Shown piece by piece: positions 601 to 60,973 of a stretch of 64,000 bases of DNA; the stretch's first letter is position 1, and each line of letters opens with the position of its first letter. A model generated the notes under the pieces. That model saw only the letters and a list, made by a program, of their open reading frames with translations. It was not told the origin of the DNA and ran no database searches. Source of the stretch: Schistosoma haematobium (taxonomy: Eukaryota; Platyhelminthes; Trematoda; Strigeidida; Schistosomatidae); assembly GCF_000699445.3 (NCBI RefSeq), contig NC_067201.1:20067001-20131000 (forward strand), written 5' to 3'. Both the position numbers and the translations under genes were made by a program.

Positions 601-899
601 AGATCTTGCCGTGATCCAATCTTTACCATTCTTCAAATGTTATGAATTTGTTTCAGTTGTTTAATTTTCATTTTTAAAGCAATAGAAACATGTAAACAGT
701 GCTGGAAAAAAGTTAAAATCACATAACATCTACTTAGATGAATTTTAATTCCAATGTTGTGTAAAATAAGGGGATTTCAGAAATACGTTTCAGGATTTCA
801 ACCTTCTGAATAAATTATAAACAGTGCAGTTTAACCATGTCGAGAGTGCGGAATGGAAGATTGTCGTCCAATATTTTGAAGTGTTCAGAATGAGACAAA

Positions 900-1075
900 T
901 AGATACCTGCTTGATGGTCTAAAAGTTAGACATTGGAGAAAGGTCTTGGATTCGATTCCCTGATGTGGGGTCGTGCATGTGCACTACTTAGGAATCCCAT
1001 ACTGGGACGAAACAGTGTCTAGTGCCTTCAAGATCCCAGTGGTGATCTAACTAAGACCAAGTCGAGATCTGATAC
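900..1075 (+). mobile_element. SINE-A copy with degenerate hammerhead
   Basis: This is an old tRNA-like retroposon. A B-box-like TTCGATTCCC near 952 is followed by the family block TGCACTACTTAGGAATCCC and GGGACGAAAC. The hammerhead core here reads CUUAGGA instead of CUGANGA, so it should not cleave. Its stem I strands (GCACUA and UAGUGC) still pair perfectly, by a pair different from other copies. The usual 3' block (GGTGATCTAAC) follows. Confidence 0.65.
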
Positions 1076-2697: not shown

Positions 2698-2717
2698 GCA
2701 CCATTGATTTGGAATCA

Positions 2718-12215: not shown

Positions 12216-13709
12216 GATACCTTACATATTAGACATATTTATGTTTTTTATCAAATTGAGTAAGCATCTTAAAGCATGCCTAACACTATTCAATATTAAT
12301 CGGATTTCACAGTTTCTTGATGGTGAAAATTGAATACTCAACAATAAAACCTTTTCATGAATAGCAACAAAATAATGTTTATGAGTATGTTCCTTAGCAA
12401 CGTTACATTTAAACCTCGTTCTTTTTTTTTTTTACAAAAAAGTATGTATATGTACACACCACGTACTGATCACTGCAAGTAGATATATTCATTTTAAGCG
12501 GAAATTAATTTTTTTTTTCAAATCAATTAAAATTATATGTCCTAGAAGGGGAGAGACATTGAAACAAAATGGGGATTCAAATTTGTCACTTGAAGAAGAA
12601 GAAGGAGGAGGAGGAGAAGGAGGATAACACTGAAAAACTATGTATTCAACTTTTCTTGGGGAGGGGAATTTCGTTCAATAATTACAATGTCAAATTTTCG
12701 GGGAGACCAAACGTATTCTTCCAAAAAAAGCTTAGAAGTGCCCTGAAAACACTGGGAAACATTTTATCCATCCAGTATTGAATAGAAGTGTCTCAGATAC
12801 ATTTATAAGGTGAAGAGTCAAGTATCACATTTCGGATTGGATGATTATATACTGCTGCAATTCTGATAGGGGATAGAAAAAAATTGGTGAATACAACTGG
12901 ACAGTTGTCATGTTCAACAGTATCAACTTTAATGCCAATAAACACCGGAGTTTAGCAGTTTTCAATGACTCTTCAGATGACATTCATTTGAGTGTAATGT
13001 AAAATGATTAGGAAATGTTTTAATTAGCTAAGAGTATCAATACAAGTTATGATTGACGGTCAGAGATATTAAATATCATAAAAAATGAATGAGATCTAGA
13101 TAGGTTAAGAAAATCTTTAATCTTCTCATAATATGTATAACTAATAGAGTAGTATACAGAGTTATTTGTTCTCATTTGTATAATTAAACTTTTTCTTTTC
13201 TATAGCAAATAGTTAATTTCTAGCAGTTCAAATTGACAGGCTAGCAATTGAACAATTTCTCTGTTTCAAAATGATCTATGTATGTGTAGAGATTGCTTGA
13301 ATTTTCTATTTGAATACTTTTACAAATGGTGGAAAGGTGAACTGTTCACAAGATTTTGTCTAGTCACTGAATATTAGGAATAAACCGATCATTATTCACA
13401 TGTGAAGATAACCATCCTTTTTCAGTGTTCAATAAAAGTGTAATACCTAGAGTTTATTTATTTACTGGGATGGTGTTGTGTATAAGAGGATGATTTTCAA
13501 CGGAAGCTTTTTTATTTCATTCGTTTAAAGTTATCTCTACATATGTCTTCTATGAACACGTAACTATGCAATATATCAGTTTGCTGGATGAAAGGAAACA
13601 AATTAAGTAAACTTTACAGTTTTAAAGAAAATCCTCAGTGAAGATAATGTCTTTATACGTAGAGCTCATTTTCATGGATTAGTTGAAGTTAGATATTAAC
13701 ACCGTTGGA
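12216..13709. other. Intron sequence with purine tract
   Basis: A GAA/GGA-rich tract lies at about 12586-12625. A diverged repeat related to 8440-8600 lies at about 12720-12870. Otherwise nothing is recognised. Confidence 0.45.
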
Positions 13710-13915
13710 TGCCGACAAGTTCATTGGTCTAGAGGTTAAGCGTTTGTGCGCAAAACCGATAGGTCATGGGTTGGAATACCACGGAGCGGGATCATGGATG
13801 CACACTGCTGAAGAGTACCACAAGAAGATGAGACGGTCATCCAATGCTTTCAGGTTTTCCATGGTGGTCTAACTTCAATTGACTCATGATCTCAACTATT
13901 GAAATAGGGAAATCT
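13710..13915 (+). mobile_element. SINE-A copy
   Basis: The tRNA-like head (TTGGTCTAGAGGTTAAGCG, B-box-like GGGTTGGAATACC) is followed by the hammerhead region and the 3' block TTTTCCATGGTGGTCTAAC. The hammerhead has CUGAAGA, but stem II and GAAA are destroyed. Confidence 0.75.
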
Positions 13916-14694
13916 TTGAAAATGCTTAATATCATACATACTTAAATATTGCAAAATAGATGAACTACAAATTCAAAGTCTTGCATACATCCTATCTCGA
14001 TTTTTACCATCATACTTATCATTTCAAATGCCCACATTTTATTTTGAATAGGTTCACTTCAAACGATTGCCCTTAAAAAATTCATGCCTATTAAAACTGT
14101 CACATTTAAAGATAAGTAATAACAATAGCAGACCATTCAATATATACAACTGTTTAATATTGATACAAACTTATCAATTTAAACACAACACCAAGTTTAT
14201 ATATTCATGAAATACACTAGGGTATATTACTATCATTCTGTACACAAATGTAAACATAAACAAGAATAGATTTAATAGAAGAAGAGAAAAAGAAAACAAA
14301 CGAAAATATGACTCATGTTCCATTGTAAAACTGGATAATCTAAACTATAAATTAGATCAATTTAGTGTTTATCTAGTCAACTATTTATTTCTCTCCACAA
14401 CCGCTCCCCAACACTCCCCATAGAAATGGACAAACATATAAAGGGAAAAAAATATTGAAACTAACATACATTGGTCTTATTATTAATGTGTTATTAGACC
14501 ACCACTAAAATAGGTTACAAAAAGTTGGTTATAGTTGTGGTAGTAAGACAATACTAGATTTTACCAATAAAATAATGTAACATAATATAATTTATAGCAA
14601 ATAGGCCCATACATAAAATTGAAAAGATGAGTATATTTCAGTGAAATAAAGAAATAACCTGCTCATTGTTATAATACAAAGATATTTTAATAGT
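13916..14694. other. Intron sequence, nothing recognised
   Basis: AT-rich, with no conserved frame or repeat block. Confidence 0.5.
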
Positions 14695-15080
14695 TGAGAT
14701 CATGAGTCAATTGAAGCTAGAACACCATGGAAAACCTGGAAGCACTGGACGGCCGTTTCGTCTTATTGTGGAATACCTCCTTGGCAGTGCGCATCCACGA
14801 CACCGCCTCACAAGATCCGAACCCAATCGTTATTCGTCAGTAATCAAATTATGCAGTTTAAAAAATAATTTATATTATTGTACATCATTCATGGATCATA
14901 ATTGATCGTGAATACAATAATCAATTCGTTCGTATTATACTGTTGACGAGTCTAAATAAACGCCTGGGAACGTATTATCTGATGAGTTCCATAATAGGAC
15001 GAAACGGCCGTCCAGTGCTTCCAGATTTTCCATGGTGGTCTAGCTTCAATTGACTCATGATCTCAGCTGTTGGAAAAACA
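14695..15080. mobile_element. Two SINE-A fragments, head-to-head, with S-alpha remnant
   Basis: At 14695-14830 a SINE-A copy lies on the minus strand; its hammerhead core is altered to CCAAGGA. At about 14978-15080 a plus-strand 3' half keeps CUGAUGA, a stem II with one wobble, GAAA and ACGGCCGUC. Its 5' stem I strand has been replaced, so it cannot fold alone. Between them, TTGACGAGTCTAAATAA resembles a decayed S-alpha hammerhead. Confidence 0.6.
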
Positions 15081-16609
15081 CCTAATTTTCTACATATAAC
15101 TAACCTAAGAGTAAAGGTCTTACTAATATTTTGCCCCATTGTTCAATTTAAAACGTGGAATTAGTGTATGGTTATAGGAAACAGATAAGAAGTCAATAAT
15201 ATGCGTGCCAGTAACAGATTAACAAAAAAAACTACTAATCGTTTTCAACCTTACAATCGGTAGGAAATAACATGACAGTAGTTAGTATATATATAAAGAA
15301 AACCAAAGCTGTTGAAACCTAATTTTATGTGGTCACAAAGAAAATAAACTGAAATATACAAGTTTATCTTCATTTATAATATATACATATCACATCGTAC
15401 CTATAATATGTCTAATTAATTCTGAAAAAACGGGAAAAACTTAGCTATTTAAAATTAAATATGCATATAAACATTATTGAAAATTGGCAGCATGCCAATT
15501 GTCTACACGATGATTTCTCAATTCTGGAGAGCCATGATAAAGCGTCTTAATGTTTGATTGTGTATACGGTAACAAAACAAGAGTAGAACAGTAAAAGATA
15601 TCCCACTAAAAATGTGGACATGCTACTATATTACCGGACATACGAGCATGTTTGTACATAGTGAGTGTATAAACACTTACATAGTGGTAATGTGTTCTTC
15701 ATATATACTGTTAAACAACCATTGTTGTACACCACTATTCTCGTAACCGGGAAAAAACTTCTAGACCAGACATAGAAGTCAGAAAAATAAGTAATGTAAG
15801 GGTAGAGAGAGAAAATTAAGGAAAGTATTAAGCAAGCAACCTAACGAATGAGACACAGAGGGAGAAAAAAAAAAAGAGAGAGAGAGAGAGAATGCGACAC
15901 CGTCATAGTAACGGATTAAACAAAACACCTGTTTAAGGTATTAGATATTGTAGTTACCTTAAGAATGAGAAAAAACGGAAGAAAACAAGAGGTAAGGGAA
16001 TTTTGTTATGAAATTTCAGTCATCAAAATTGTGATACCAAAGGAAAGACTAGAAATGTACGAATAACATCTAAATAAAACATATTTTATGAGACCAAATA
16101 TGATTATCTAATAAAAATTATTATTATTATTACAGAGAATTAACAGGTCTTGTTTTTCTTTATCCAGCGTAATGATTTTTCAAGTTGTTGTTTATTATTT
16201 TTGTCTCCTCCATTTGCTTAATTGACCTTTATTGTTTTATATATAAATGTTCTTAACAAGTATATTATGTGTGATCAGATTGTTCGAAATATATCGCGTT
16301 AATATATCATATTCAGATGGTGGAGAAGATTCTTAGCTCAGATGGATGATTTTCCTAGAGTATTGTTCTCTGAACTGGATGGTTTGGTCGTGGAGCTTTC
16401 ATCGTTCTTCTGAACGACATTATCAGTACAAATTTCAGGTATAAGCGAAGCGTTCGAATTTCTCTACATGTGGTTCACAGATTGTCAGTTTATCTAATAA
16501 ATAAATTATGCTACATCACAATTTTCTTTAATTTTTTCAGGTATCGAGGTAAATAAATGTTCAATGTCTGCACTATATCTATTCAATATTAAAATTACTA
16601 TAATATTCA
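15081..16609. other. Intron sequence with GA tract and a duplicated 130-bp block
   Basis: A GA microsatellite lies at about 15874-15892. The block at about 16360-16480 (GATGGTTTGGTCGTGG to TTCGAATTTCTCTACATG) recurs at 51449-51540, where it is also inverted. No gene is seen. Confidence 0.5.
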
Positions 16610-16975
16610 CAGGATCCCTTCTGATATTAATCAACATATGCTCACAAGTGACTGGCTTCAAAAGGTGTTCCCTGGAGTTCTAGTGAGAAGCCGTGACCAG
16701 TGGAGTTCAATAGGGTCTCTTGTGAAGAAAATGGTAAATGTGTCGCTCAATTTAGTGGATTGGTTTAAGCTAAACATTAACACCATTAAATGCCGGCCGG
16801 CTCGGTGGTCTAGAGGTTAAGTGTTCGCGCGCGAGATCGATAGGTGCTGGGTTGGAATCCTGTGTGGTGGGATCGTGGATGCGCACTGCCAAGAAGGAGT
16901 TCCACAATAGAACGAAACGGTTTTCCACGGTGGTCTAGCTTCGAACGACTCATGATCTCAACCATTAAAATATAT
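16610..16975 (+). mobile_element. Long SINE-A unit
   Basis: This copy includes the 5' extension (CATATGCTCACAAGTGACTGG, GGAGTTCTAGTGAGAAGCCG) before the tRNA-like head (CTCGGTGGTCTAGAGGTTAAG). The same extension is present at 60540-60905 and, reversed, at 18900-19310. The hammerhead is damaged: the core has an insertion, and part of stem III plus the cleavage site is deleted. Confidence 0.75.
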
Positions 16976-18720: not shown

Positions 18721-18899
18721 AATTTCTAGTAATTAAATTATGTTAAAGTTAATGAAAAGTTGAATAATATCTAGTACTGAACTACTGATTCATTATCTTT
18801 TGACGGAGGATATGGTGAAAAGGTAGTTTTGCGAATTATAGAGTACTGATGGTCTACTGAATGATCACCGGGATATTTATTCAAGTTCTGGCTCTAGAA

Positions 18900-19560
18900 T
18901 ACTATTATTATCAGAAGGGGTTTTATGGAGATTTCAGTAATTTCAATAGTTGAAATCATCAGTCAATTGGAGTTAGACAACCATGGAAAACCTGGAAGCA
19001 TTGGACGGCCGTTTAATCTTAGTATGGAACTCCTCGGCAGTGCGCATCCACGATCCCGCAACGCGAGATTCGAACACAGGACCTATCAGTCTCGAGCGCT
19101 AGTGCTTAACCAATAGACCACTGAGACTGCCGGCATCCAATGGTGTTAGTGTCTAACTTCAACCAATCCACGAAATTGCACCACCGTACACCATTGCCTT
19201 CAGTAAGCTGATATCTCACAACAGACCTGGCTGAACTCCACTGGTGACGGCTTCTCACTAGAACTCCAGGAAATGTCTCTTGAAGTCAGTCATCAGTGAG
19301 CAGATGATTGTTATCAGAAGGGGTTTTGTGGAGATTTCAGTAATTTCAATAGTTGAAATCATGAGTCAATTGATGCTAGACTGATAGGTCCTGGGTTCGA
19401 ATCTCGCGAGGCGGGATCGTGGATGCACACCGCTTAAGAGTCCTACAATAGGACCAAACAGCCATCCAATGCTTTCAGGTTCTCTATGATTCTTGCTTCA
19501 ATTGAATCATGATTTCAACTATTGAAAATACTATTATTATTATTATTATTATTATCATTA
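18900..19560. mobile_element. SINE-A pair: long minus unit joined to a plus copy, TTA tract at end
   Basis: 18900-19310 is a long SINE-A unit on the minus strand, with tRNA-like head and 5' extension. At 19311-19380 a second minus 3' end begins and switches directly into a plus-strand copy (GGGTTCGAATCTCGCG at about 19393) that ends in a TTA microsatellite (19530-19560). Both hammerheads are mutated: CCGAGGA with GAAA lost, and CUUAAGA with CAAA. Confidence 0.7.
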
Positions 19561-20424: not shown

Positions 20425-20764
20425 CATGGCTATAGCAAGAAGGTGTATTATACTAGACCTTATTACAATTTATTACTTCATGGAGGTTGTTGGTATTTAT
20501 TATTAATAAAATGAAAAGAAAAGAAAAACTAAAGGAAAATTTGTTTTTTTTACGTTAAAGGTACCATATATTCAATCTTAAATAATAGAAAAAAACTGAA
20601 CGAAATATCAGTAGGATAATTGCCTTTAATTATAACCTTTTTAAGGGATATCGTTAAAACAAGCATCGATGATAATGTGTAACATGAATTCCATTATTGA
20701 ATAATGAAACTCATGATATTAGGCTAAGAAAAAAATGGATAAAATTAACTCAAGTAAAGATGGA

Positions 20765-20900
20765 TAGTGGCTAGTAGTGTAATACAGGATGAGCGTTTCG
20801 TCCTATTTGGGACTCATCAGCTGGATGTACCTTCATCTCAGAGTTGATGTTTACTCTGGGACTTAAGGTTATATCAAGGCAATCTGCAAAGGATGCACAT
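20765..20900 (-). mobile_element. S-alpha copy, minus strand
   Basis: The hammerhead and its 5' context (AGTCCCAGAGTAAACATCAA on the minus strand) match the copy at 27340-27540. The A box is not recognisable and the B box is reduced to AGTCCCA, so it belongs to a subtype without a clear Pol III promoter. Confidence 0.65.
20779..20832 (-). ncRNA. Hammerhead ribozyme (S-alpha type), core bases intact
   Basis: Minus strand: stem I ATCCAG, core CTGATGA, stem II GTCC/GGAC with loop CAAATA, GAAA, stem III ACGCTCAT and a C at the expected cleavage position (plus-strand 20788). All invariant core bases are present. One mismatch in stem I (CTGTAT where CTGGAT is usual) and one in stem III should weaken it. 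Activity is possible but doubtful. Confidence 0.7.
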
Positions 20901-22195
20901 ATATCAACATGAGAATGACCCATTACAGTCATAAATAACAATGGAAAAATACAAGTAAAACAAGAACCAAGTGAATTTACAATTAACTCAAGTTCCCTAT
21001 AATATGGGTTAAAACAGATCCATTTCAAATTAGCAATGTTTTGATAAATTAATAGCTTACATATTCTAAAATTAATCAATACTTATTTTCAATATAATAC
21101 AAAAAAGAGGTTTTGAAACAATCAATGTTGATCTCGATCTCGGTGATATTAAACAATATTATTAATTCTTACTTTATGTAGAAGTGAATTCCCTAGATAT
21201 TCCTAAAGTATTAAGACAAACATGATGGTCATTTTACGTTTTATTGTCTTAATTTGTTGTTTCAGTTTCTAACTACATGATCTATTGATCTGTTCCATGT
21301 AAAACAGAAAACTGAAGTTATATTCAAGTCTTTTAATATGAGATTTTCTGGACGCTATGCTTCTAGAAATTGCCTTGAGTTCTTAAAATTTTATCGAATT
21401 GAAACATCTACATTTTCTTTCACAATTGTCTCTAAACACTGATATATCAAAATATATCGTTCCATTTCATAGCTATTTTGTGTTCAACAGTCTTCAGAAC
21501 TGGAAAGATATATGAAGATTATGAAGTCGACCAACAGCAAACACGGTCATTAGAACGGACCGAATAAACGGACAGGTATTTCTCCTTCCTTTTTTTTTTA
21601 CAAAAATTCATCACTGAATAAAGACAAACATCATGCTGATCGAATCTTTAATGATGACAGGATAATGTTAATCAAGCGATTATATATAGTAACATTACCT
21701 AAAAATTAATTAAGAAATAGATATTCCTTATTTACCGTTGATCTATTTTATAGAATTGAACTGGATAAAATACTACCATTTATTGTGGTAAACAATAAAT
21801 GTGTACTATTTGATTTCCATCTATATTATTCATATTATAGAAGAGTGGGAAATTTCGTGGTGCCTTAACATCTACTCAGCAATGTCTGTAATGGTATTTA
21901 GTGTCTTAAATCAGTGTACATGATAAATTGACTGGTAAGTAAAACAAATATGTACATTCTCATAGTTTACATCATGAGAAGAACATAGTTAGACAACTGC
22001 GGGAAACGAGGAAGCACTAGAATGAAACTACCACCCAGTAATATGTGATTTTAAATGATTATCTAACTACAATCAATCCATGAGTTAAAATATGAGAATT
22101 CAACAATCATTACAAACTCACTACACTAAGCACGTTTTGTTTTATTAAAAACGAGAAGATTAATTCATGCATGAATCAACATTATGACAACTCAC
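20901..22195. other. Intron sequence, nothing recognised
   Basis: AT-rich intron 2 sequence directly downstream of exon 2 of the kinase. A SINE-A-like 3' scrap may lie near 22000-22080. Confidence 0.45.
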
Positions 22196-22669: not shown

Positions 22670-23620
22670 AAGTTGTTGCTCCAGGAATGGCCTGCGTCAA
22701 CACCTCAACTAAAGATAAGGAATAAAGTAGTCTAACGCGTTGACAACTTCACTCATGTTGGAAGTCTGATCAGCCCTAAGGGGTTGATGTCTGACGAAAT
22801 CTCAGCACGGATCCAAAAAGCTCGTTTGGCTTTTTCCAACTTACGTCACATACGGCGAAAACAAGTTATTCGTCTATAAATTAACGGACGAGTATACTCC
22901 CCAGTAGTTCGTTCTGTTATACTTTACGGCTGCGAAACGTGGCCATTAAGAGTAGAAGATACTCGTAAGTTACTAGTATTCGACCACGGAGGTCTTAGAA
23001 ATGTTGCTCGCATCTGCTGGTATCACCGGGCAAGTAATAATGAATTATACGCAGGGTACTAGGGAATGATTGTAAATCAGTTTATGAGGTTGTGAATCTT
23101 CATCGAGTGAGGTGGTTGAGTCACGAGTTACGTATGCCTGAACACCGATTACCACAACACGTAATGCTGACTAGTGTTGGAGATGGTTGGAAGAAAGTTA
23201 AGGGTAACCAAACCAAAATGTGGCATCAGTCCACAAAGTCACTAGCTTCTAGTCTGAGCCATGTTGGTAGATGCAGACTACTTGGTTGGGGTCCGCGTGA
23301 CTATTGTAACCAATGGTTGGAGACTCTTAGTGACATGGCTGAGAATCAATCACAATGACGTAGATGTATACAGTCTCTGTCTTCCCTTAAACTATGAGAT
23401 GAAAATTGCTTTATATCTTTCTTTCTACGAACTAATTATTTATTCCTGTACTATATCCTTATACACAATCTTTCTTTTATATATTACCACCATTGAATTA
23501 ACTACTTCTATGAACCTGGTGTTCATCTTGCTGTGCTAATGAGGTGTGGTAACTTAGACCGATGTATATATGTGCCTGGTTCTACCTTGTAGCTGACTGA
23601 ATCAAATAAACTGAATTAAT
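22670..23620 (+). mobile_element. LINE-B 3' part
   Basis: This is a longer copy of the element seen at 1-600. Frames give FYGCETW-like and VRWLSHELRMPEHRLP, then VGRCRLLGWGPRD and a 3' UTR with TATATGTGCCTGGT. The end is GTAGCTGACTGAATC. It has several frameshifts and is inactive. Confidence 0.8.
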
Positions 23621-24089
23621 TATTACTTTTTTAGTTCAGAAATCATTCAACCGATGCCTTGATCATTTTAGCTTTATCGTTATTTTCATCTTCAAACCGA
23701 AAATATTCAAGGGTATTGTGATTATTACTGATATTGCTGGTACAATCAAACAGTCGATTATCTAATGTTGCATTATTTAATAAGTCTATTCTTAGATAAC
23801 TTTCATTAGCGAACTTGAAGTAGTACCACTCAATGATGAATTCAATCATAAAAACATCAATAAATGTAGGAAATTTATTGATGAGATTATGTATAAATAA
23901 TCAAATCGGTAAAAACTGGTGTAAGAATTCAGTCATTGCTACTTTAAAGGCAGTGATTTCATTTCAATACCGATACAGTAGTAAGTTTGAAAACCAAAAT
24001 AGCATACAGATATACGATGACGTGAAGTTCAATCACATACAGTGTGAGATAGTTGGTTGTGTAATATCATAACTCGACTGAAGTTAGAC

Positions 24090-24490
24090 AAGTACATCAT
24101 TGATTCCGTGTCAGCTTTTCAAATGAAAAGCGTTTGCGAGCGAAAACCGAAGTCTAAAGATTCATTCCTGGATGAGAGGTCGCAGGCGCACACTTCTGAG
24201 TCGTCCCATACTAAGACCAAACAGTTGTCCGGTGTCTCGTTTTTTCGTGATGGTCTAGCTGAGATCGGTACGTGATTAAAACTATGAAAATATGGTGGTC
24301 TGTTTGGAAACATTTAAACAGAAATGATGAAATACTTTAAATTGATAGTTAAGTGCTTAAGATGCTCAATATCCAGTCCTAGACTCGAACCTCGTTCCAC
24401 CTATTTCGGTCTAGGTGAATAGATAGTATGGTTAACATTTAAGCTAAAAGTGTGGCTCGTACCCAAGTACCTGGTGAAAGAGTTATGGAA
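24090..24490 (+). mobile_element. Old SINE-A copy followed by family E tRNA-like repeat
   Basis: 24090-24290 is a diverged SINE-A (GGTCGCAGGCGCACACTTCTG, GGTGTCTCG, TGGTCTAGCTGAGATCGG). 24345-24490 resembles 28255-28415: a tRNA-like B box (GACTCGAACC) followed by CACCTATTTCGGTCTAGG and GTGTGGCT. No hammerhead is seen in family E. Confidence 0.5.
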
Positions 24491-30955: not shown

Positions 30956-31135
30956 ACCATAGTAGCTGAATGGTAATGTCTGAGTGTGGAGCTGTTTAAA
31001 ACGGGTTCAAATCCTCCGGAAAGTATGGATTCCTTGACGATTACAAGTACACTTTGTTAACGAGCACCAAATTGCTCGAAACTTATTTCAATCAGGGTTT
31101 TATGTTGACTGCCTCCAACCGACACCATTTTATAA
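30956..31135 (+). mobile_element. SINE-B copy, diverged
   Basis: A-box-like TAGCTGAATGG and B box GGGTTCAAATCC are followed by the SINE-B body. The hammerhead part (about 31051-31110) has UUAACGA and GAAA, but stem III carries an insertion. Inactive. Confidence 0.6.
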
Positions 31136-31345: not shown

Positions 31346-31954
31346 AGAGTTTACTATTATTTAACAATATATTTCTTCATAACTGAAACAACGACAGGTC
31401 AGTCAATAATAAGTGACTAACACACACTTCACTTAAACAATTAACATCGCAATAAATACAAGGAAACGAACGACACTACAACCAAATTAACATGATATGT
31501 ATTTATCAATTAATTAGACTTTATATGATTTATTACAAAGCTGTATTCTATTTTTGTTTGAGCCTCACAGTTCACCAAACGGGTCAAAAAATGTTCCATT
31601 CAACTAATACGTAACACTCGGCTATGGTTACATAACCTCAGAGTACCAAAATGAGTATTTAACGTGAAATAATTGGCAACAGATACCGACAATTTACTAA
31701 ATAAAATAAATCTTATACTGAGGAGAACCAAGTTTTATATTTGCCCAGAGACTAAATCTTACTTAAATTCACTGAGAAGGTAGATATCATTACTAATTAT
31801 TATAATTAAAACTTTTTTTTCAAATAAAGATCTACACTTATAATTCACTAGTTAGTGAAACATCATTTCAATCATTAAAATGATGTTTTGAATCCTAGAG
31901 AAAAAAACAATAACTCGAAGAAGAAATCAATTGGGATAAATGATAATCATTGAA
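31346..31954. other. Intron sequence, nothing recognised
   Basis: AT-rich, with no repeat or frame that I can name. Confidence 0.45.
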
Positions 31955-32335
31955 TTGACTTGGTATTGTTTTACTTGAATCTTCCCATTGGTGTTTAGAA
32001 CTGCAATTGATCAGTCTCTTATCGGCATATGTGCATACTGTGTGTATTTGCTTGATTCACAAGCATTATAAGCAAAAATGGATAGTGGCTCTATTCAAGT
32101 AAAGTATACCAAGTGAATTCAAACTTAACCTCATTGCACAAACAAGTGGCTATGAGGATTCAGTAGCTAAGTGGATAACGTGATAGCGTTTGAAGCGAAC
32201 GGTACTGGTTACGAGTCCCGGACTGAATATCAACTTTCATATGCAGGTACGTCCAGCTAACGAGTCCGAAATAGGACGAAATGCGCGTCCTGGATTCCAC
32301 TGGGAGCCACTATCCATCAATACTATTCATTTTTA
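31955..32335. mobile_element. Two S-alpha pieces in head-to-head orientation
   Basis: 31955-32090 is the reverse complement of the S-alpha 3' part seen at 59030-59180 (it contains AAAAATGGATAGTGGCT). From about 32090 a plus-strand copy begins, with A box TAGCTAAGTGG, B box GGTTACGAGTCCC and the hammerhead at 32246-32300. The junction makes an inverted pair. Confidence 0.7.
32246..32300 (+). ncRNA. S-alpha hammerhead, one core mutation
   Basis: Stem I (GTCCAG/CTGGAT), stem II (GTCC/GGAC), GAAA and GTC before the cleavage point are all present. The core reads CUAACGA, with the invariant G5 changed to A, which should abolish cleavage. Confidence 0.75.
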
Positions 32336-33464
32336 ATAAGTGACTTATCTCAATGTAGGTATGAATTGAAATCTCACTAAAACTCTGTAATCTCTAAAGC
32401 CGAACTAGATAGTGAATGTAATACGAAACCCAATTACGATGTAAGATTCTTTCATTACGCTGAATTATAAAAATTAACATCAAGAGAGTGTGTTAACGAG
32501 TCTGATTTTAACAAAAAAGTTATTATTTGATGTCTTCTTTTTTCCAATTGTAAATAACTTTATGAACTGATGCTACGCTTTGGTTTGGTAGCACATAGCT
32601 TTCTTCCAGACTACTGCTACAACAATAAACATAACTCTTTGAAGTATATGGTGTTTGGACAAACATAATACGTCTCATTCATCTCACATGATGATTTACT
32701 ATCTAAATATCCGATTTGTTATCCTTATTTAATACCTTATATCTAACTCTAGCTTTGCTAACTCAGTGGTCTCAAAAAACAGATCTGCAAAGCCCCGAGG
32801 GTATCTGTGACCAAATACTATTAGTCTACGAATGTCTTCTATTCTTCAAAATTATGTATTTCACCCATAGAATACCCATAAGCTTTTATTATATTGGCTT
32901 TGTTGACGTGTTCTGTGTCCATTGAAACACTGCTTTATCATATCCGGTCGTCAAACAAAGTGATACTAAAAGGTTTAGACTCGAGACGTTTACTCATTTT
33001 AAGCCGAAAAAAGAGGCAAATAATACGAATCATTAACTGTGTACTGCTTTTTCGTGTCTAAGTTAATAAATTATGTTTCTCGTAAAGGGGACAATGATGA
33101 GGAGTGACATTGAAAGTAAGATGAACTGAAATTTTAGAGCTAACAACACGTTATATAATATGGTTTCTACATAGTCTGAAAAATGTGTCATTAGAAGGCA
33201 ACTCTCATCAATATATCATGTCAATAGGAGAGCCAACACATATTTCATATGATATTGGGAAAGTGTTTCACTTTAATTTAGAGCTTCTCAACATTATGTG
33301 CCAATAAACTCCTACGAAACTGTGTCGAGAACCTTTGGTTCTCGTAATGAGCACGATATCTCGTGATGGACAAAAGAGTCGGAATTCCATGATCCACATT
33401 TCAAGTTTAAGTAAATTTGCGATCTAATAATTGAAAGCTAACTGCTTTAATAATTATCTCAATA
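32336..33464. other. Intron sequence, nothing recognised
   Basis: A 69-codon frame at 32716-32925 is hydrophobic and unsupported. No repeat family is seen. Confidence 0.45.
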
Positions 33465-33665
33465 GTTGAGATCATGAATCAACTGAAGCTAGACCACCAT
33501 GGAAAACCTGAAAGCACTGAACGGCGGTTTTGTCCTATTGTGGGACTCCTCAGCAGTGCGCATCCACGACCCCACCTCAAGAGATTCGAACCAAGGACCT
33601 ACCGGTCTCGCACGCGAACGCTTAACCACTAGACGACTGAGCCGGCATCCAACGGTGTTATTGTT
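33465..33665 (-). mobile_element. SINE-A copy, well preserved
   Basis: Minus strand: CTCAGTCGTCTAGTGGTTAA, B box GGTTCGAATCTC, hammerhead, then TTTTCCATGGTGGTCTAGC and TCATGATCTCAA. The hammerhead has intact CUGAGGA, stem I and stem II, but GAAA is AAAA and the cleavage-site C is lost. Confidence 0.8.
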
Positions 33666-33672
33666 AATGTGA

Positions 33673-34015
33673 TAAAGTAACTCACTGCGGAATCTAAGAA
33701 TGTTTCTCACTTTTTCATTTAAAATATTGACGATTGTTCAATTGTTTAATCACTTAAAATAGTGACAGAAGATTTTAATTTCAAGTAACATCATATCCGA
33801 TAACTTTCATCCTTAATCTTCATTATTCCTTATTAATCAATAATCATATATGTCCGAATCTCTCGAGATAAGGTTGTGGATGCGCACTGCTGAGGAGTCC
33901 CACAATAGGACAAGACGGTCATCCAGTGCTTCCAAGTTTTCCATGGTGGTCTAGCTTCAATTGACTCATGATATGAACTATTGAAATTACTATAATATTC
34001 ACAAAAACCCTTCTG
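33673..34015 (+). mobile_element. Chimeric SINE-A unit (copy 1 of a duplicated block)
   Basis: About 195 bp of unrelated sequence (TCTAAGAATGTTTCTCAC to TATTAATCAATAATCATATA) joins SINE-A exactly inside the B box region. The same junction and sequence occur at 60206-60540, so the chimera itself was copied. The hammerhead has CUGAGGA and perfect stem II, but GAAA reads AAGA. Confidence 0.75.
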
Positions 34016-34329
34016 ATAATAATAATTATCATGATTTCATTTGAATCCAATAATAAGAACATGTCTTTAGGAAAAATGATAATTATAATAAGATGAGGAA
34101 ATATGAAAAAAAACTAATTTAACAATCGCTTAGTGTCAAGTGTTTGACAGACATTAAAAATGAAATAGTATTTGTAAAATTCTTTGACTACAATGCCAAG
34201 TAAGAACTTTGGAGTTGTTATAAAATGCCACACCTAAGATCTCTACAAATATAATAACTAGTATGAAGGGACTTGTGAAGATTACAAAGTTTGCGTAGTT
34301 TTAGTCATGAACAGATTTTAGCTAGATTA

Positions 34330-34640
34330 ACATTTGAAACCAGTAAGCACTGGATAGCTGTTTTGTCCTAATATAAGACTTTCTAGCAGTACGTATTCAT
34401 GAACTCAGAATCGAGAATCAAACTAAAAACCTTCAATCTTGCGCGAACGTTGTACTTCCAGACAACTTAGCCGGTATCCAAAGGTACATATGTGTCATTT
34501 CAATCAATTCACGATACTGAGTAACTTTAATCCATTGTCTATAATGAATAAATATCTTAAACCCGACATGATTGAACTCCACTGTTTACAGCTTCCAGGT
34601 TTTCAATAGTGATCTAACTAATATCAGTTCGTAATTTAAA
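34330..34640 (-). mobile_element. Old SINE-A copy
   Basis: A strongly diverged minus-strand unit with the TGCTTACTGG and CAGCTATCCAGTGC blocks, and part of the 5' extension near 34490-34590. A plus scrap (TTTTCAATAGTGATCTAAC) follows. The hammerhead is lost. Confidence 0.55.
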
Positions 34641-35924
34641 CTATGGCAATATAATTACCTTTGTAACGTATAAAAATTTTTGCAAGAAACTGCAGGAAAT
34701 GATGACTGATTTCTTTATGGCAGCCTTCTTTTACTGATAAATTATGATATAGACCATTGAATTAGGGATTTTTTTTCTCAAATCTTACACTACATAACAA
34801 CAGTACATTGAAAGAAACTATTAAAGATTGAATCAGGAAGTTTTATATTCATTAAAATGAATCGAAAGCTTAACTTCAGTGAAGTTGTCGAATACTAAAA
34901 CTTAACGTCCATTGAAATACATTTCAGTATGATTATCAGTGTCATTTACTTTTACAACTATCTTCCAATGTATATGCCGATTTTCATTAACTCCTTATGT
35001 TTATAAAGATGTACATTTAATACCATCTATAAAGTGATTAATTATTGGAATATAGTCGGAATTTACTTATTGACTTTGATAAACAATCATTCGAATAGTA
35101 GCAATGCATTATTACAAATGTCTAGAATAATACACACAGATTTTTTTTTCCTAGGTGAATAGACAACAGGAAATTGTCTCTTTTTTCTTTTTTTTGTTAT
35201 TAAAATGTAGTAAAATCGACCGTTTTAATTTCTCATAATGGAATACATGTACATTTTGTGCTACACAGATGATTTCATCATCCGGTACTTGTTAACATTA
35301 TGAATAAACCAATCAAAAAGGCTTTTTATACAAAATTATAACTTGAATAAAGTAAAGACTTTGGCACTGAGCCAACAAAATTTGTCCATTTGTTCATCAT
35401 TATGTTGTTATTTCTCTCAAAACAACATACACACAGTCAAAAATTATACAATACAATGATTTTTTTTAGAAAAAAACGTTTATCATAGACACTATACAAA
35501 CAAAGTACATAGAGAAATATAGGAATGAGACAGGAAATATATATATACATAATCCGTTGAAAAGGACGAAAGACCGGTAAATAGATAAAACTAGAAGTGT
35601 CTACACACTTCAGAAGAAACAAAACTAACTAACTCCTAACCAACTCCTAGTGTTGATGTTAAGAATTTGGATACATTAGTTTCAATGACTTTTTCATTAA
35701 ATAAATTAATGCATGAAAGATTTTTGTAACATTACTCTAATCTAATTGATCTTTAAAAATAAAGAGAATTTATCTATAAATTTTACATAAGCATTAAGAG
35801 GGGAAAGAGAGAGAAAAATAAACAATGTTTAGGAAAAATGAGATATAAAGAGAGATACTAAGGTTATCGGTTACACGTTATACGTTATATTTAACACTTA
35901 AAACCATTTTTACTGTTTACTAGG
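34641..35924. other. Intron sequence, nothing recognised
   Basis: AT-rich, with poly-T runs near 35140-35200. No gene seen. Confidence 0.45.
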
Positions 35925-36070: not shown

Positions 36071-36409
36071 TATCATTACATTTCAAGCCCTAATTCTTAA
36101 TATACTTATATTTTACAACCTGCTTGTTAGGCTACGCTAAAATGTTATGCTCATAGTAAATGATTGCAGATAACTCCAAACGTTTGAAATGAAATCTTTA
36201 ATGAAAACCACACTCTAATACGAAACAGATGTTCTCTTACTGAATGGAAAATAGTTAGAAAGTGTTAAATACAACATGAACATTGAAAATGTGAATAATA
36301 ATCTCAGCTACAGAAAAGTACAGAATGAAAATGTATCAATTAATGTATTTAGATTAAATAGATTGAAAAAGAAATATCAAAGTGAATGTTGTTGAGACAT
36401 ACAAAAAAC

Positions 36410-36480
36410 AGGAAACGGCAATCCAATGCTTCCAGGTTTTCAATGGTGGTCTATTAGTTCTAGATTTATGATCTCAATCA
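36410..36480 (+). mobile_element. SINE-A 3' scrap
   Basis: Matches only the end of the hammerhead and the 3' block (AATCCAATGCTTCCAGG, TTTTCAATGGTGGTC). Confidence 0.6.
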
Positions 36481-46539: not shown

Positions 46540-46660
46540 CGGATTCTCGCAGTTCAGGAGACGTTTAAGCCAGTTCAGTTTTACGAAACGTCCTTACAAT
46601 GTTTCGTGGTTTTCAATAATGGCCTAACATAGATCGGTTCATGATTTCAATGAAACACAG
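46540..46660 (+). mobile_element. Old SINE-A 3' remnant
   Basis: Only the end (CGAAACGTCC, GGTTTTCAATAATGGCCTAAC, TTCATGATTTCAA) is recognisable. It lies between two candidate exons of the unknown gene. Confidence 0.5.
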
Positions 46661-47359: not shown

Positions 47360-49515
47360 CTCTGGAGTTGTGTTGCACACAAGGGACAAGTTGTTATGCA
47401 AACACAATGCACCCACAAGACATTTCATCAATTTGGTGAGTAACTGACTCCAAATTGTCAATTGACTTGAGTGATGCTATATAGTTAGATCAGTTATATT
47501 TTTAACTGGACAAAACAACTTTCAGTCACAAGTGGTTGAATGTGTTGATTTTTCCTTCAAGTTATTTCAAGCACTAAGCCAAAATTCAGTCTTAACATTA
47601 TATGTAAAACAATAATACCAGTTGAAAGAGGCTCAATGTAACATATGCCAATAAAATAGAGATACTAAGACAAGCCTAACAAATGTAATCAAAATGAAAT
47701 CATTTATGCACTTATCAGTTGATAATTATTGTGAAGTACTGTCTTATTTTGTAGGTTATCGTGGAGCACATAGAACCGTAAAGTTCGTCTGCTACAATTC
47801 ATAAAAATACAACTACATAAGCTAGAAGTTATCTACAAACCAGTTGCAGACAATAAGCCAATTCATTATGCCTATGATAAGTTTACTTTCATCTGCTATG
47901 AATATTGTCCCGTGTTTATTCACTTCTGTGCACAACAGAATGAATGAATCTTTTTTGAATGATGTGAATTTGGAATAAAGTGCCGGAATTTGCATGATGT
48001 GCGTGTTTATGAGTCACACAGCTATTTATGCATTTAAATGCTTAAATTTCTCTTTGAATCCAGTTATAAACTTCAACTAATGAGAGACGGTGTGTTTAGT
48101 GAGAGACTTAGAGTGAAGATCTACTACCTCTTACTCAACGGGTACTTGGATCTAAGCTGCTGATATAAGAATACGAGATCCATCTTTCATATATGAGGGC
48201 CCTACACTATGCCAGAGTTATGTTAATTCTAGGCTGGGCTTGATTCCACACAAATCATGCGAGAATGAAGGTTTTATACTTCAGCTGAGTACTTTTAATA
48301 CGTCATATATGGCATACGTATGTAAATTTGTCATAATGCAACGACCTGATATATCAAATCTTACATCGAAGTCACATAATTGACTACACTGACTCGTCTC
48401 ATCTTGAAAATCAGCAATATGTTGTTAAGTGCTTCTGAACAACACATTTTGACTGGAGATGACGTAATATATTTGATGTGGAATGATATGAGTTACACAG
48501 AATGGCCACGCCTGCAAGTCTGAGCTATGTCATATCATACAATTCCCTCGTTAATCAAATATTCTGCATCAAAGGTCGTGTATTACGAGCCAATATGACC
48601 ACATGTACACTGTCTTTGCCAACCATGTCGAGTCATAAGCGCTATATGTTCCGGGATAACTTATATTATTAAGTCAACCATGAAACACTATGGGAGGTTC
48701 TATGCCTGTATGTCACAAATTCACTTCTATAACACCATAATAGTATGGGATTTTTCCAACTCACTTTACGAATTATATGGACGGATTATATCCCTGTTCT
48801 TATTTCGGCACTCTGTATAATATTGAGTATCAAGAAACAATCTCGCTTTAGTTAACCATATCCATGCATTGTAGCAGGAGAACCTGACTTCCTTTCGGCG
48901 TTTTTGAAAGTGAGTTCAACGTGATTTTGTTGACCACACATCAGTAACCGGAAATATCAGCCTTTACACTGACATATTAGTATATTTAAATGCTCCCAAG
49001 TATATGCATTGTGTCTTCACCTTGATGGTAGACAGCCAATACTACAAATCCGACCATAACCATAAAAACGTGGAAGCAATGTGTGGTAGGTTTAGCCAAA
49101 CACTTGACCATAAGAACAACAACCCGGAATCACACACCAATGAAATGACCATGTGTTGATAATATCCCAGTATATATTAACACTAAGAATTTGTGAGTGA
49201 GCATTTGGAGCATAGCTCGCAAAAAGACAGGAAGTGAGAGACATAAATGCTTGACAAACCGGAAAAAGGTAGACTGTTCGCAGTAAGCAAAACTGAAAAA
49301 TGAAACCCAAGCGAAATGTTAGTAAGGGTGCAGAAAAGACCAATCGATCTATACACGTTCGTTATAAATGCTGTCAAATATTGAGCATTGTACACATTTT
49401 TCCAGGCTATTTACTTGGTTGTGATGTGTGCGACTTTTTGGATGTCGTTTACTTTTCGGCGTTTTATTATGATTACATTTCGGGACAATTCTCGGATCTA
49501 TCACAAGATCTAAGT
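47360..49515. other. Upstream region of the LRRCC1-like gene
   Basis: A possible 5' leader exon near 47395-47441 ends in a donor-like TTTGGTGAGT. A strong acceptor (CACATTTTTCCAG at 49393-49405) precedes the LRR start and could take a cis or spliced-leader junction. No repeat family is recognised in this 2.1 kb. The minus frames at 49092-49395 look like shadows. Confidence 0.4.
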
Positions 49516-49778
49516 ATGAGAACTGAGTTGGAATTTATCAATTCTGGGATCGATAGTATTAACGGTCTTAATTTGTCTCCAAATATAACGGTGTTGAATT
49601 TGCACCACAATCGCATTTCAAAGATAAATGGACTCACAAAAGCGACATTGTTGCGTTATTTGGATTTATCTTCTAATTATATTAGTAAGATATGTGGACT
49701 CGATAATTTGCAGCATCTTCGAATTTTGAACTTGTCATCCAATAAGATTCGGTCCATTGATTCATTAGAGAACTTAAA
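49516..49778 (+). CDS. LRRCC1: LRRCC1-like protein, first coding exon (LRRs 1-3)
   Basis: From ATG 49516 this encodes 87 residues plus two bases. It carries SDS22-type leucine-rich repeats: VLNLHHNRISKINGL, YLDLSSNYISKICGL and ILNLSSNKIRSIDSL. The segment before them (EFINSGIDSINGLNL) lines up with the start of the LRR cap in animal LRRCC1 (CLERC), a centriole and ciliary base protein. The donor is AAA|GTAGGT. The frame is open upstream to ATG 49300, but that part spans a strong acceptor at 49405 and is not LRR-like, so the start at 49516 is preferred and not certain. Confidence 0.8.
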
Positions 49779-50419
49779 GTAGGTTTAAATGCTTATGTCT
49801 TTTTATTTAAAATCAGTTCTGGTGAATGTATTTTCCAACGTCGTATGTCAGTCTAAAATGCATATATAGTTATGTAGTCATGTGGTGCTATTTTGATACA
49901 CGATATCTATTGAAGTTTAGCAAATATCTCGGAAATAATGTTTAAAAAATTTGGGAATCAGAACCAATATAAGTCAAAATTTGATTGTGAACAAGAGTTC
50001 ACAGATCGATAGTTTCACTGTAAAGAGACGCTGGTGCAGGTGTTGAAGCGAATAATTCATGCTTTGTCGAACTTATTTAAACGTTCATATAAATGATAGG
50101 TTCATTTAGCTAAATAAAAAGTTCCATCATGGATTTTGAACTCTTAATACTGGACATAACTTTGGTGTGGTCTCATTTCTACGATATCCAAAATAACAAA
50201 ATCATACTCGTAGTCTACATTTAGTCGAAGTAATTCAATGCAATCAGTTAATCAGTGTGTTGCCCTTACCTCTTATATTTTGTGTGGATAGCGGTAAGTT
50301 TATTCATTATCCACATTAATGGCACTATGTTAAATCGTGTTTAGATATCTTATCCTCTTAACTGTAAACTTTTCAGTTCGCAAGCCCTCTTCTGCTCCTC
50401 GTTTTTCTTGTTTTTCCAG
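49779..50419. other. LRRCC1-like intron 1
   Basis: Starts GTAGGT and ends TTGTTTTTCCAG. No repeat recognised. Confidence 0.8.
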
Positions 50420-55510: not shown

Positions 55511-55974
55511 TGGGGATCTAATTACAAACACTGTTCATGAAAATAAAAAAAAAAATTACTTTTAATTAGAAAATGTTTGTCATTGGGTTGAAACTTATTG
55601 TTTCAACACATTAGTCAAAAGAAGTAATTCCTCTATGTCTAAGCTCTAATACATATCGATGTGGAGACTTCTGTTAGAAGGAAAAGGTTGAACAAGTTCT
55701 TAAACTGAATTATAATGATAATAATGAATATTTCGTTTGATTTATGTACATTTGTGGATAAAAAAATTGGGTGAAAATCGTTGATTTTGAATTTGTTTTT
55801 ATTTTTCTCCCCTAAAGAATTAAGTGGATTCCTCGACATGATTTCTACTTCCAGTTTGTCAGTAAGTTTAAAAAATGTTTGTTTTTTAAATTTATGAATA
55901 TAAGTTTAATTCGTTTAGATCCATTTACTGATTACGGTTATCATTTATCTTATGAAAAGTTTTGAATGAAGTCA

Positions 55975-56055
55975 TGTTGATGTTAGACCACTATTGAAAA
56001 CTTAAAAGCACTGGACGGCCGTTTCATCCTGTTGTGGGACTTCTCAGCAGTGCTC
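55975..56055 (-). mobile_element. SINE-A partial copy with near-complete hammerhead
   Basis: Only the hammerhead and 3' block are present. Minus strand: GCACTG / CAGTGC stem I, core CUGAGAA (invariant G8 changed to A), stem II with one wobble, GAAA, ACGGCCGUC. It lacks the Pol III head and is inactive by the core change. Confidence 0.65.
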
Positions 56056-56219
56056 ACACCATTGTAAAGAAATAAAATAGTCAAATGTCAATAACTAAAG
56101 TTACAAGAATGGTATTTATAAAATTATGTCATAAAACTACGAGTAATCAAAGTAGATTTTGTTCCTTTAAAAGATGGATTGCATATTATTTTTAAAAAAT
56201 CAATTAGACTTACGATAAA

Positions 56220-58515: not shown

Positions 58516-58810
58516 AAAATAACCTTAACTATTGAACCTAAAACATTTTGCCTTCTGAAAGTACGTCATCAAAACAAGAAAGATACTTCAGTGTTCTTTA
58601 GCACACTTATTTTGGACAATGAAACAGTGATAAATTAACTGAATACCTATTTTGAATTCATAAACGTTCGGGCCAGGTTTTGTGTTAGTCACAGCTGACT
58701 GACTATTCTACATCTAGATATCAACCAATTTCTTCATAAAATTTATTTAAATTTCAAGAACATTTGGATGATTCACTTAAACTTCTTGTAGTCGATACAT
58801 AATTGATCGA

Positions 58811-59180
58811 TGGGAAGACACAAGCCAAACAATACCAAGTAAATTTAAATCCACCCCATTGCACAAGCAAGTGGCTATCAGGACTCAGTAGCTGAGTGGA
58901 TCACGCGATGGCGTTTGAAGCGAATGATATTGGGTTCGAGTCCCACAGTGAACATCAAATCTGAAGTGCACGTACATCCAACTGACGAGTCCCAAACAGG
59001 ACGAAACGCGCGTCCTGGATTCCACTGCTAGCCACTATCCATCATTGCTTACAAAAAGCTTGTGAATTAAGGCGATGTTGAGGCATACGCACAGTATGCA
59101 CATATGCTAATAACAGACTGATCAATTGCAGTCTTAAACCTTAATGGGAAGATACAAGCCAAACAATACCAAGTGAATTT
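58811..59180 (+). mobile_element. S-alpha unit, full length plus start of next repeat
   Basis: A TGGGAAGACACAAGCCAAAC block at 58811 recurs at 59145, giving a 334-bp unit followed by the first ~35 bp of a second one. Inside are an A box TAGCTGAGTGG (58889-58899), a B box GGTTCGAGTCC (58933-58943), the hammerhead (58972-59025) and the 3' half. This is the expected layout of the schistosome S-alpha SINE-like family. It ends about 25 bp before the splice acceptor of the next LRRCC1-like exon. Confidence 0.85.
58972..59025 (+). ncRNA. Hammerhead ribozyme (S-alpha), all core bases intact
   Basis: Stem I is ATCCA/TGGAT, with an A-C mismatch at the pair next to the core. The core is CTGACGA (58982-58988), stem II GTCC/GGAC with loop CAAACA, then GAAA (59003-59006), stem III ACGCGCGT with a two-base loop, and cleavage expected after C59014. 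This is the best preserved S-alpha ribozyme in the window and may still cleave. Confidence 0.88.
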
Positions 59181-60205: not shown

Positions 60206-60540
60206 TGGTAACTCACGCGAAATCTAAGAATGTTTCTCACTTTTTTATTTAAAATTTTGACGATTGTTCAATTGTTTAATCGCTTAAAATAGTGACATAA
60301 GATTTTAATTTCAAGTAACACCATATCCGATAACTTTAATCCTTATTCCTTATTAATCAATAATCATATATTTTCGAATCTCGCGAGGTGGGATCGTGGA
60401 TGCGCACTACTGAGGAGTCCTACAGTAGGACGAAACCGCTGTCCAGTGCTTCCGGGTCTTCATTGGTGGTCTAGCTTCAATTGACTCATGATCTCAACTA
60501 TTAAAAATTAACATAATATCCACAAAAACTCCTTGTGATA
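60206..60540 (+). mobile_element. Chimeric SINE-A unit (copy 2 of a duplicated block)
   Basis: Nearly the same sequence as 33673-34015, including the unrelated 5' half and the join inside the B box (TTCGAATCTCGCGAGG). It runs directly into a complete SINE-A unit at 60540, making a tandem pair. Confidence 0.8.
60404..60449 (+). ncRNA. Hammerhead ribozyme in SINE-A, core intact
   Basis: Stem I GCACTA/CAGTGC (the pair next to the core is an A-C mismatch), core CTGAGGA (60410-60416), stem II GTCC/GGAC, GAAA (60432-60435), stem III ACCGCTGT with one mismatch, and C at 60443 before the cleavage point. All invariant core bases are present, so residual activity is possible. Confidence 0.7.
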
Positions 60541-60905
60541 CTAATCAGCATATGCTCACTAGTGACTGGCTTCAAGAGATATTTCCTGGAGTTCTAGTGA
60601 GAAGCAGTGACCAATGGAGTTCAATCTGGTCTGTTGTAACTCACTGAAGACAACAGTGAACGGTGGCTCAATTTCATGGATTGGTAGAAGTTTGACATTA
60701 ACACCGTTGGATGCCGGCAAGTTCAGTGGTCTAGTGCTTAATTGTTCGCGTGCGAGACTGATAGGTCCTGGGTTCGAATATCGCGGTGCGTGATTTTCGA
60801 TGCGCACTGCTGAGGAGTCCCATGCTAAGACGAAACTGCCGTCCAGTGATTCTAGGTTTTCCACGATGGTCTAGCTTCAACTGACTTATGATCTCAACTA
60901 TTGGA
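60540..60905 (+). mobile_element. SINE-A, complete long unit
   Basis: It has the 5' extension (CATATGCTCACTAGTGACTGG), a tRNA-like head (GGTCTAGTGCTTAA, B box GGGTTCGAATATCG), the hammerhead and the 3' end (TGGTCTAGCTTCAACTGAC, TGATCTCAACTATTG). It lies 70 bp before an LRRCC1-like exon. Confidence 0.8.
60804..60849 (+). ncRNA. Hammerhead ribozyme in SINE-A, core intact
   Basis: Stem I GCACTG/CAGTGA (5 pairs), core CTGAGGA (60810-60816), stem II GTCC/AGAC (3 pairs), GAAA (60832-60835), stem III ACTGCCGT with one mismatch, cleavage expected after C60843. It lies exactly 400 bases after the previous SINE-A hammerhead. Confidence 0.7.
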
Positions 60906-60973
60906 AAAATCATATATGTATTTAAAGTGTATTTTATATGAGTTTCTTACAATCACCATTAATACATTTCTAG

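Follow-up and report, generated by a model that had tools for sequence, protein, structure and literature searches.

The SINE-A repeat and its hammerhead

The analyzed stretch of Schistosoma haematobium DNA, 64 kb in length and referred to here as the window, contains a dispersed repeat whose ~400-bp unit includes both an A and a B box, along with a type I hammerhead and a tail rich in A and T. We retain for it the name SINE-A, the label given in an earlier sequence-only reading to the short repeat that carries the hammerheads at 60404–60449 and 60804–60849. A profile built on 11 seed copies and run against the window with nhmmer (E < 1e-4) returned 20 rows, two of which were excluded (one Sm-alpha copy and the short piece 34584–34650), leaving 18 fragments. 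Both halves of the hammerhead core are present in 13 of the 18. Insertions are fewer than fragments, because 19381–19342 and 19158–18939 make up one copy, and 60373–60507 and 60689–60908 one insertion. The 17-mer GCACTGCTGAGGAGTCC, allowing up to three mismatches, occurs nine times in the window, whereas shuffles give an expectation of 0.02. The features are collected in Table 1.

Table 1. Positions of SINE-A copies, their hammerheads and associated features in the window
Feature	Position	Strand	Details
Insertion, 534 bp, read as single	60373..60906	+	~1.33 units, both hammerheads; unit positions 308 to 403 to 38
Hammerhead type I, copy 1	60404..60449	+	predicted cleavage after C60443; 12/12 core; innermost stem I pair A.C; 35.0 bits
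Hammerhead type I, copy 2	60804..60849	+	predicted cleavage after C60843; 12/12 core; 28.6 bits
Left target-site repeat	60359..60371	+	AATAATCATATAT; 12/13 identical to 60905-60917
Right target-site repeat	60905..60917	+	AAAAATCATATAT; first two bases overlap the aligned copy end
A box, 3' unit of 60373-60906	60727..60737	+	TGGTCTAGTGC; 10/11 to TRGYNNARNGG by eye; majority 11/11
B box, 3' unit of 60373-60906	60771..60781	+	GGTTCGAATAT; family majority GGTTCGAATCT, 10/11
Copy, about one full unit	16582..16972	+	start at unit 25–32, end at unit 38–39; part of the hammerhead deleted
Copy, 403+75 bp	18904..19381	-	unit 1 to 75, 478 bp; ends 403 bp apart, 69/75 identical
Second composite part, opposite orientation	19374..19532	+	core broken at G5, G12
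5'-truncated copy	13667..13915	+	core broken at A14
Truncated copy	14684..14825	-	core broken at U4, G5
Truncated copy from C3	14979..15077	+	core intact, stem I 5' strand missing
Copy	33455..33667	-	all stem pairs intact; G12 to A
Copy, 3' end of segment 33677-34026	33851..34026	+	G12, A14 changed
Truncated copy	55967..56059	-	all stem pairs intact; G8 to A
Decayed copy	899..1072	+	G5 changed
Decayed copy	34296..34486	-	four core bases changed
Decayed copy	24083..24291	+	three core bases changed
Third hammerhead family	1589-1724	+	A and B boxes scored in 2/3 copies of the family
Third hammerhead family	6474-6660	-	
Third hammerhead family	30963-31133	+	

In the majority sequence of the 18 fragments, none of the 12 invariant core bases (C3, U4, G5, A6, G8, A9, G12, A13, A14, A15.1, U16.1 and C17) is missing, and the three stems pair, stem I over 6 bp, stem II over 4 bp and stem III over a short stretch. 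The majority has the features of the type I class, namely the CUGANGA and GAAA motifs, an H17 at the cleavage site, three stems and ends that lie in stem I. Among the 13 scorable copies, all 12 core bases are intact in three (60404, 60804 and 14979), ten have lost at least one, and none keeps the core together with every stem pair. The core bases that are broken vary by copy and comprise U4, G5, A6, G8, A9, G12 and A14. Agreement with the majority is 161 of 184 cells in the core and 2003 of 2435 at other positions (17 rows, the tail piece 19381–19342 also being excluded), a difference too small to demonstrate selection on the core (Fisher p = 0.086). The perfect core of the majority, together with the similar conservation of core and remainder, suggests that the founder of SINE-A was ribozyme-competent on paper and that inserted copies decay much like the remainder of the repeat.

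The sequence-only reading had described a common repeat with a type I hammerhead shortly after its B box, a majority sequence amounting to a perfect ribozyme, copies broken at different positions, and a predicted cleavage-site C at 60443 and 60843. These descriptions agree with the 18 fragments, the Rfam matches, the core table and the bases read at the two sites, the perfect ribozyme being predicted from the majority core and stems. The motif it quoted is that of the family majority; the 60404 copy itself has the A.C mismatch, and the 60804 copy lacks two pairs, one in stem II and one in stem I.

Covariance scores and predicted folding

At the gathering cut-off of 34 bits, the Rfam type I hammerhead model (RF00163) matches nine places in the window. 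Four are Sm-alpha-like (58976, 20782, 32251 and 27462), four have SINE-A stems and one belongs to a third family (6503). The SINE-A matches are 56008–56053(−) at 41.2 bits, 33514–33559(−) at 39.7, a composite at 14937–15018 at 37.5 and 60404–60449 at 35.0. The composite arises because DNA that cannot be aligned to SINE-A replaces the stem I 5' strand of the 14979 copy, so that Rfam merges this copy with an upstream motif at 14937. Four more SINE-A hammerheads score below the cut-off at E ≤ 1: 33884 (32.0 bits), 60804 (28.6 bits, E = 0.0068), 18998(−) (26.6 bits) and 14742(−) (22.1 bits). In the covariance search of the window, which had been proposed as a check, the hammerhead at 60404–60449 is thus above the cut-off and the one at 60804–60849 below it.

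In free-energy folding, the minimum free energy (MFE) structure of the SINE-A majority differs from the hammerhead, which lies 5.2 kcal/mol above it. The corresponding difference is 6.1 kcal/mol for the Sm-alpha copy 58976 and 5.0 kcal/mol for the Rfam consensus, and for the single SINE-A copies it is 8.8 kcal/mol at 60404 and 5.4 kcal/mol at 60804. When the hammerhead is enforced on a 90-base stretch, an outer helix is added to stem I beyond a small internal loop. In natural hammerheads this region is the site of loop–loop contact. Sm-alpha hammerheads are described as active in the cited parts of two papers (PMC8490949; PMC6155905).

Polymerase III-type boxes

The SINE-A majority contains an A box that agrees at 11 of 11 positions and a B box that agrees at 10 of 11, located 44 bp apart, when scored against the general A-box (TRGYNNARNGG) and B-box patterns. 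Shuffling the mononucleotides of the majority 5000 times never yielded an A and B box pair. Sm-alpha has both boxes at 11/11, also 44 bp apart, and in two copies of the third family the A box scores 11/11 and the B box 9/11 or 11/11, with spacings of 43 and 41 bp. The repeat had been called tRNA-like, which is apt for its boxes and their tRNA-like spacing but does not extend to a recognizable tRNA: ARAGORN found no tRNA genes, and Rfam gave no tRNA match at E ≤ 1. With a lowered threshold, ARAGORN returned an implausible 92-base fold for the head of the majority. Neither program yielded anything usable in favor of a tRNA origin of SINE-A.

Unit length, copy ends and target-site repeats

Direct repeats 250–500 bp apart were present at three loci among 24 places tested. 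The periods of SINE-A are 400 bp (60373–60906) and 403 bp (18935/19338), and Sm-alpha copy 58976 has one of 334 bp. We took a circular 403-bp reference unit from copy 19381–18979(−). Three SINE-A copies cover the whole unit, and two are clearly over one round, 18904–19381 (478 bp) and 60373–60906 (534 bp). The copy at 16582–16972 was also considered as over-length and rejected, because its overlap of 7–14 bp partly coincides with a target-site repeat, leaving it at about one unit. Most copies other than 60373–60906 are single and truncated. The 403-bp unit has a GC content of 46.7%, 60373–60906 one of 45.7% and the 220-base head-to-tail majority one of 51.8%.

The 16 listed 3' ends fall at unit positions 38–50 (seven), 75–78 (two), 5–29 or 56 (six) and, for one short match, 361. 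No listed copy end coincides with the cleavage site, which is at unit 378. Closest to it are two 5' starts at unit 368 and edges of internal deletions at 357/387 (4247–4314) and 373 (16582–16972). Two decayed copies, 36408–36478 and 46583–46650, both start at about unit 368 (36413 and 46586), immediately ahead of the GAAA and ~10 bases before the cleavage site. BLAST-derived ends of decayed copies are approximate.

Four of 16 SINE-A intervals have a target-site repeat at p ≤ 0.02, some intervals being alternative readings of one locus, and the other 12 have none at that level. The copy at 16582–16972 lies between 13/14 repeats (16574–16587 and 16971–16984) that were equaled by 0 of 150 random pairs. 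The over-length copy 18904–19381(−) is the inverted part of a composite that ends at 19532; this composite is flanked by 15/16 repeats (18896–18911 and 19525–19540), which are partly ATT microsatellite and were likewise equaled by 0 of 150 random pairs. At 33455–34026, a minus-strand and a plus-strand copy adjoin, and the pair is flanked by an A/T-rich 11/12 repeat (p = 0.02); this is possibly another inverted composite. The head-to-head pair 14684–14825 and 14979–15077 was considered as a single event and rejected, as it has no target-site repeat. A second test on eight intervals found a 15/16 repeat at 20752–20978 (Sm-alpha) and a 16/17 repeat at 6474–6660 (third family), and nothing above chance at 58810–59180 (p = 0.11), 31950–32319 (p = 0.26) or three other intervals.

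Against three 403-bp units in tandem, the whole insertion at 60373–60906 is covered by one alignment (80.6% identity, E = 6e-145), and its direct-repeat arms, 60373–60508 and 60773–60910, lie 400 bp apart. The 12/13 target-site repeat on its flanks is equaled by ~1% of random interval pairs (0.01 of 150; 0.013 of 300). Both hammerheads probably arrived as parts of one insertion slightly over one unit. They had earlier been taken for separate SINE copies, one at 60404 and one at 60804. We set this reading aside in favor of the arms of a single 534-bp insertion, since the block is in phase, with a period of 400 bp, and lies between target-site repeats.

The history of this locus is nonetheless more complex than a clean insertion, as its left junction is found again at 33851. 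The junction there is within a segment of ~340 bp that 60208–60545 shares with 33677–34026 at 85.7% identity, and that includes ~165 bp unrelated to SINE-A, followed at both places by the same junction with the repeat. We read this chimeric, duplicated or co-mobilized segment as a putative later duplication or re-mobilization of the inserted locus.

Sm-alpha and a third hammerhead family

Sm-alpha resembles SINE-A in its box spacing and type I hammerhead, but the two differ in the sequences of stems I and III, in loop II (six bases in Sm-alpha and seven in SINE-A), in their bodies and in unit length (334 versus 400–403 bp). Alignment of Sm-alpha to the SINE-A profile is limited to the stretch from the A box to the hammerhead (nhmmer E = 3.9e-5), whereas body, tail and stems I and III differ. 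The distinctness of stems I and III, which the sequence-only reading had pointed out, is thus upheld, and on sequence comparison SINE-A is outside the Sm-alpha family, as Sm-alpha sequence beyond the functional motifs is absent from it. The Sm-alpha copy at 58810–59180 has 12/12 core bases, scores 69 bits and has direct-repeat ends 334 bp apart, the length of the published W36.2 unit. At 20752–20978 and 31950–32319 there are Sm-alpha composites, each made of two pieces in opposite orientation, and the first has the 15/16 target-site repeat.

The third family, with three copies in the window, is distinct from both Sm-alpha and SINE-A. Its majority has CUGACGA, GAAA and pairing stems, with a GUGC/GCGC stem II by eye, and every single copy has lost core bases. 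The copy at 6474–6660 carries the 16/17 target-site repeat, and no repeat above chance flanks 1589–1724 or 30963–31133.

Two further features of the window were recorded. Rfam matches mir-3492 above its cut-off at 49–119(−) and 22745–22822(−); as the match is repeated within one window, it may mark a transposable element and not a miRNA gene. An open frame with leucine-rich repeats at 49297–49782(+) is probably a host-gene exon.

Relation to published schistosome repeats

Four hammerhead-bearing units of S. mansoni are described in the cited part of PMC8490949: W25.2 (415–428 bp; 39,648 autosomal hits), W26.2 (399–402 bp; 25,162), W27.2 (403 bp; 55,303) and W36.2, which is Sm-alpha (332–335 bp; 42,670). 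According to that account, the W25.2, W26.2 and W27.2 hammerheads have weak similarity to Sm-alpha, and the tested W-element candidates have a very short stem III. Three of five W25.2/W36.2 variants cleaved in vitro, the family of each active one being unstated there, and the two inactive variants carried changes in the core or at the cleavage site (PMC8490949).

SINE-A is like W25.2, W26.2 and W27.2, as these are presented in that source, in having a type I hammerhead only weakly similar to Sm-alpha, a short stem III and a unit within the range of 399–428 bp. These elements have tens of thousands of autosomal hits, and a possible target-site duplication (TSD) is given for one W25.2 element. 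The periods of 400 and 403 bp match the lengths of W26.2 and W27.2 (399–403 bp), just as the 334 bp of Sm-alpha match W36.2 (332–335 bp). SINE-A is likely one of the published W-element hammerhead families, W26.2 or W27.2 by length, the match being one of unit length and kind. The comparison is by description, and the cited text treats the W-elements as satellite-like and their SINE-like role as speculative. The idea that SINE-A is a newly seen second ribozyme-bearing SINE family does not hold, since there is a third family in the window and W25.2, W26.2 and W27.2 have been published (PMC8490949, in the part cited). Ribozyme-bearing mobile repeats of this kind have been described before, and SINE-A is one of them.

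Two other reports, as cited, describe related material. In S. mansoni there are ~38,500 hammerhead candidates and a tRNA-Gln-TTG-like SINE tied to Sm-alpha (PMC2770079), so that an abundant Pol III-type SINE and abundant hammerheads occur in one genome, as for SINE-A; that SINE is linked to Sm-alpha, whereas SINE-A is not recognized as a tRNA. In S. haematobium, 16 hammerhead-like small-RNA elements are reported, seven of which overlap SINE/tRNA repeats (PMC5993326). An exact SINE-A 22-mer gave no match in public viral contigs or public genome contigs, an exact 25-mer gave none in public viral contigs, and six SINE-A motif strings had no occurrence among 5.39 million open-access papers.

Metazoan non-LTR retrozymes are described, in the cited parts of PMC7229834 and PMC7761336, as repeats of 150–450 bp with type I hammerheads, larger TSDs and low GC, occurring as dimers to multimers with TSDs of more than 4 bp, and platyhelminths are among the phyla named. 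SINE-A compares closely: its two hammerheads in 60373–60906 are 400 bp apart, within the 150–450 bp range of direct repeats, its target-site repeats of 12/13, 13/14 and 15/16 at three loci exceed 4 bp, and the GC content of its 403-bp unit is below 50%. There are differences. Small circular RNA in the animal, a mark of retrozymes, is for SINE-A a prediction, and SINE-A has Pol III boxes, whereas the term ‘polymerase III’ does not occur in the cited text of PMC7229834.

How the copies may have arisen

SINE-A is probably a non-autonomous retroposon of the non-LTR retrozyme or Sm-alpha type, a SINE/retrozyme hybrid with Pol III-type boxes. The observations that support this are the boxes, the hammerhead majority, the unit period, the two over-length copies, the target-site repeats and the fact that the listed copy ends all lie away from the cleavage site. 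On this reading, SINE-A would be transcribed by Pol III. By analogy with the studied metazoan retrozymes, multi-unit transcripts would be cut by hammerhead self-cleavage into ~400-nt pieces, which a cellular RtcB-type ligase would close into circles. A reverse transcriptase borrowed from another element, presumably primed on the tail, could then insert copies of one unit or longer at a staggered target site, producing target-site repeats of 13–17 bp. Some copies would thereby come to exceed one unit, and some would have one part inverted.

Several of these observations also fit other accounts. Transcription of a tandem satellite with no circular stage explains the over-length copies equally well, and a linear element whose bounds lie in the tail would account for the one-round copy 16582–16972. 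Twin priming is a mechanism of LINEs, but a Penelope-like enzyme could likewise produce inverted composites flanked by TSDs, so those seen here fit either. Penelope-like elements reportedly carry hammerheads in their repeat arms and occur as partial tandem and inverted copies (attributed to Cervera and de la Pena, 2014). SINE-A shares with them the hammerheads in repeat arms and the partial tandem and inverted copies; a difference is that no autonomous element with the SINE-A tail was found in the window. For the helper enzyme of retrozymes, a published account favors Penelope-like elements or Terminons, and a 2020 review states, in the part cited, that metazoan retrozymes have no motif indicating a helper retrotransposon (PMC7761336).

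A domain scan of 10 of the 21 open frames identified a reverse-transcriptase remnant at 2647–3603(+), with RVT_1 at E = 2.2e-6, below the curated cut-off, and DUF6451 above its cut-off. The remnant was rejected as an autonomous partner that shares the SINE-A tail, because its 3' region differs. Five other places in the window carry further copies of that 3' region.

The alternative that survives best is a linear Pol III SINE with an incidental hammerhead, which has no circular or multimeric stage and for which 60404 and 60804 are separate insertions. It accounts for the A and B boxes with their SINE-like spacing, for truncated copies with seven of 16 listed 3' ends at unit 38–50, for a copy (16582–16972) that starts and ends near the same tail position, and for the recurrence of 60208–60545 as a block of its own at 33677–34023. 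It is nevertheless unlikely in our judgment, as copies continue beyond the A box on its upstream side, crossing body and tail to enter the next round, and two of these copies surpass one unit, 60373–60906 forms one in-phase block between target-site repeats, and no tRNA was recognized. We consider it highly improbable that SINE-A represents pieces of a tandem W-type satellite which DNA recombination, and not retroposition, has scattered: the unit periods do equal those of S. mansoni W26.2/W27.2 and 12 of 16 intervals are without a target-site repeat, but such repeats flank both single copies and composites, and nine of the 16 listed 3' ends cluster at unit 38–50 or 75–78. That the hammerhead is a chance or decayed resemblance that never worked as a ribozyme is scarcely credible, for although no copy in the window is wholly intact and the MFE fold is not a hammerhead, the majority retains the full core and three pairing stems, the 17-mer far exceeds its expectation, the stems differ from those of Sm-alpha yet still pair, and W25.2/W36.2 variants are reported to cleave in vitro (three of five tested; PMC8490949, as cited).

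Returning to retroposition of a ribozyme-bearing unit, a wider proposal can be made, which we advance tentatively and with more doubt than conviction. At least three sister schistosome families (Sm-alpha, SINE-A and the third family) may combine a hammerhead with a promoter of the Pol III type, and their insertion features, by which we mean over-length copies, inverted composites flanked by TSDs and the absence of copy ends at the cleavage site, may record the tail-primed copying of ribozyme RNA, either circular or multimeric, by a reverse transcriptase. The SINE-A hammerhead itself adds little to the published ribozyme repeats of schistosomes. What could matter more are the over-length copies, the target-site repeats and the inverted composites, which concern the way RNA processed by ribozymes returns into animal genomes. 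If the wider proposal is true, this insertion record could reveal whether a LINE or a Penelope-like enzyme mobilizes animal retrozymes.
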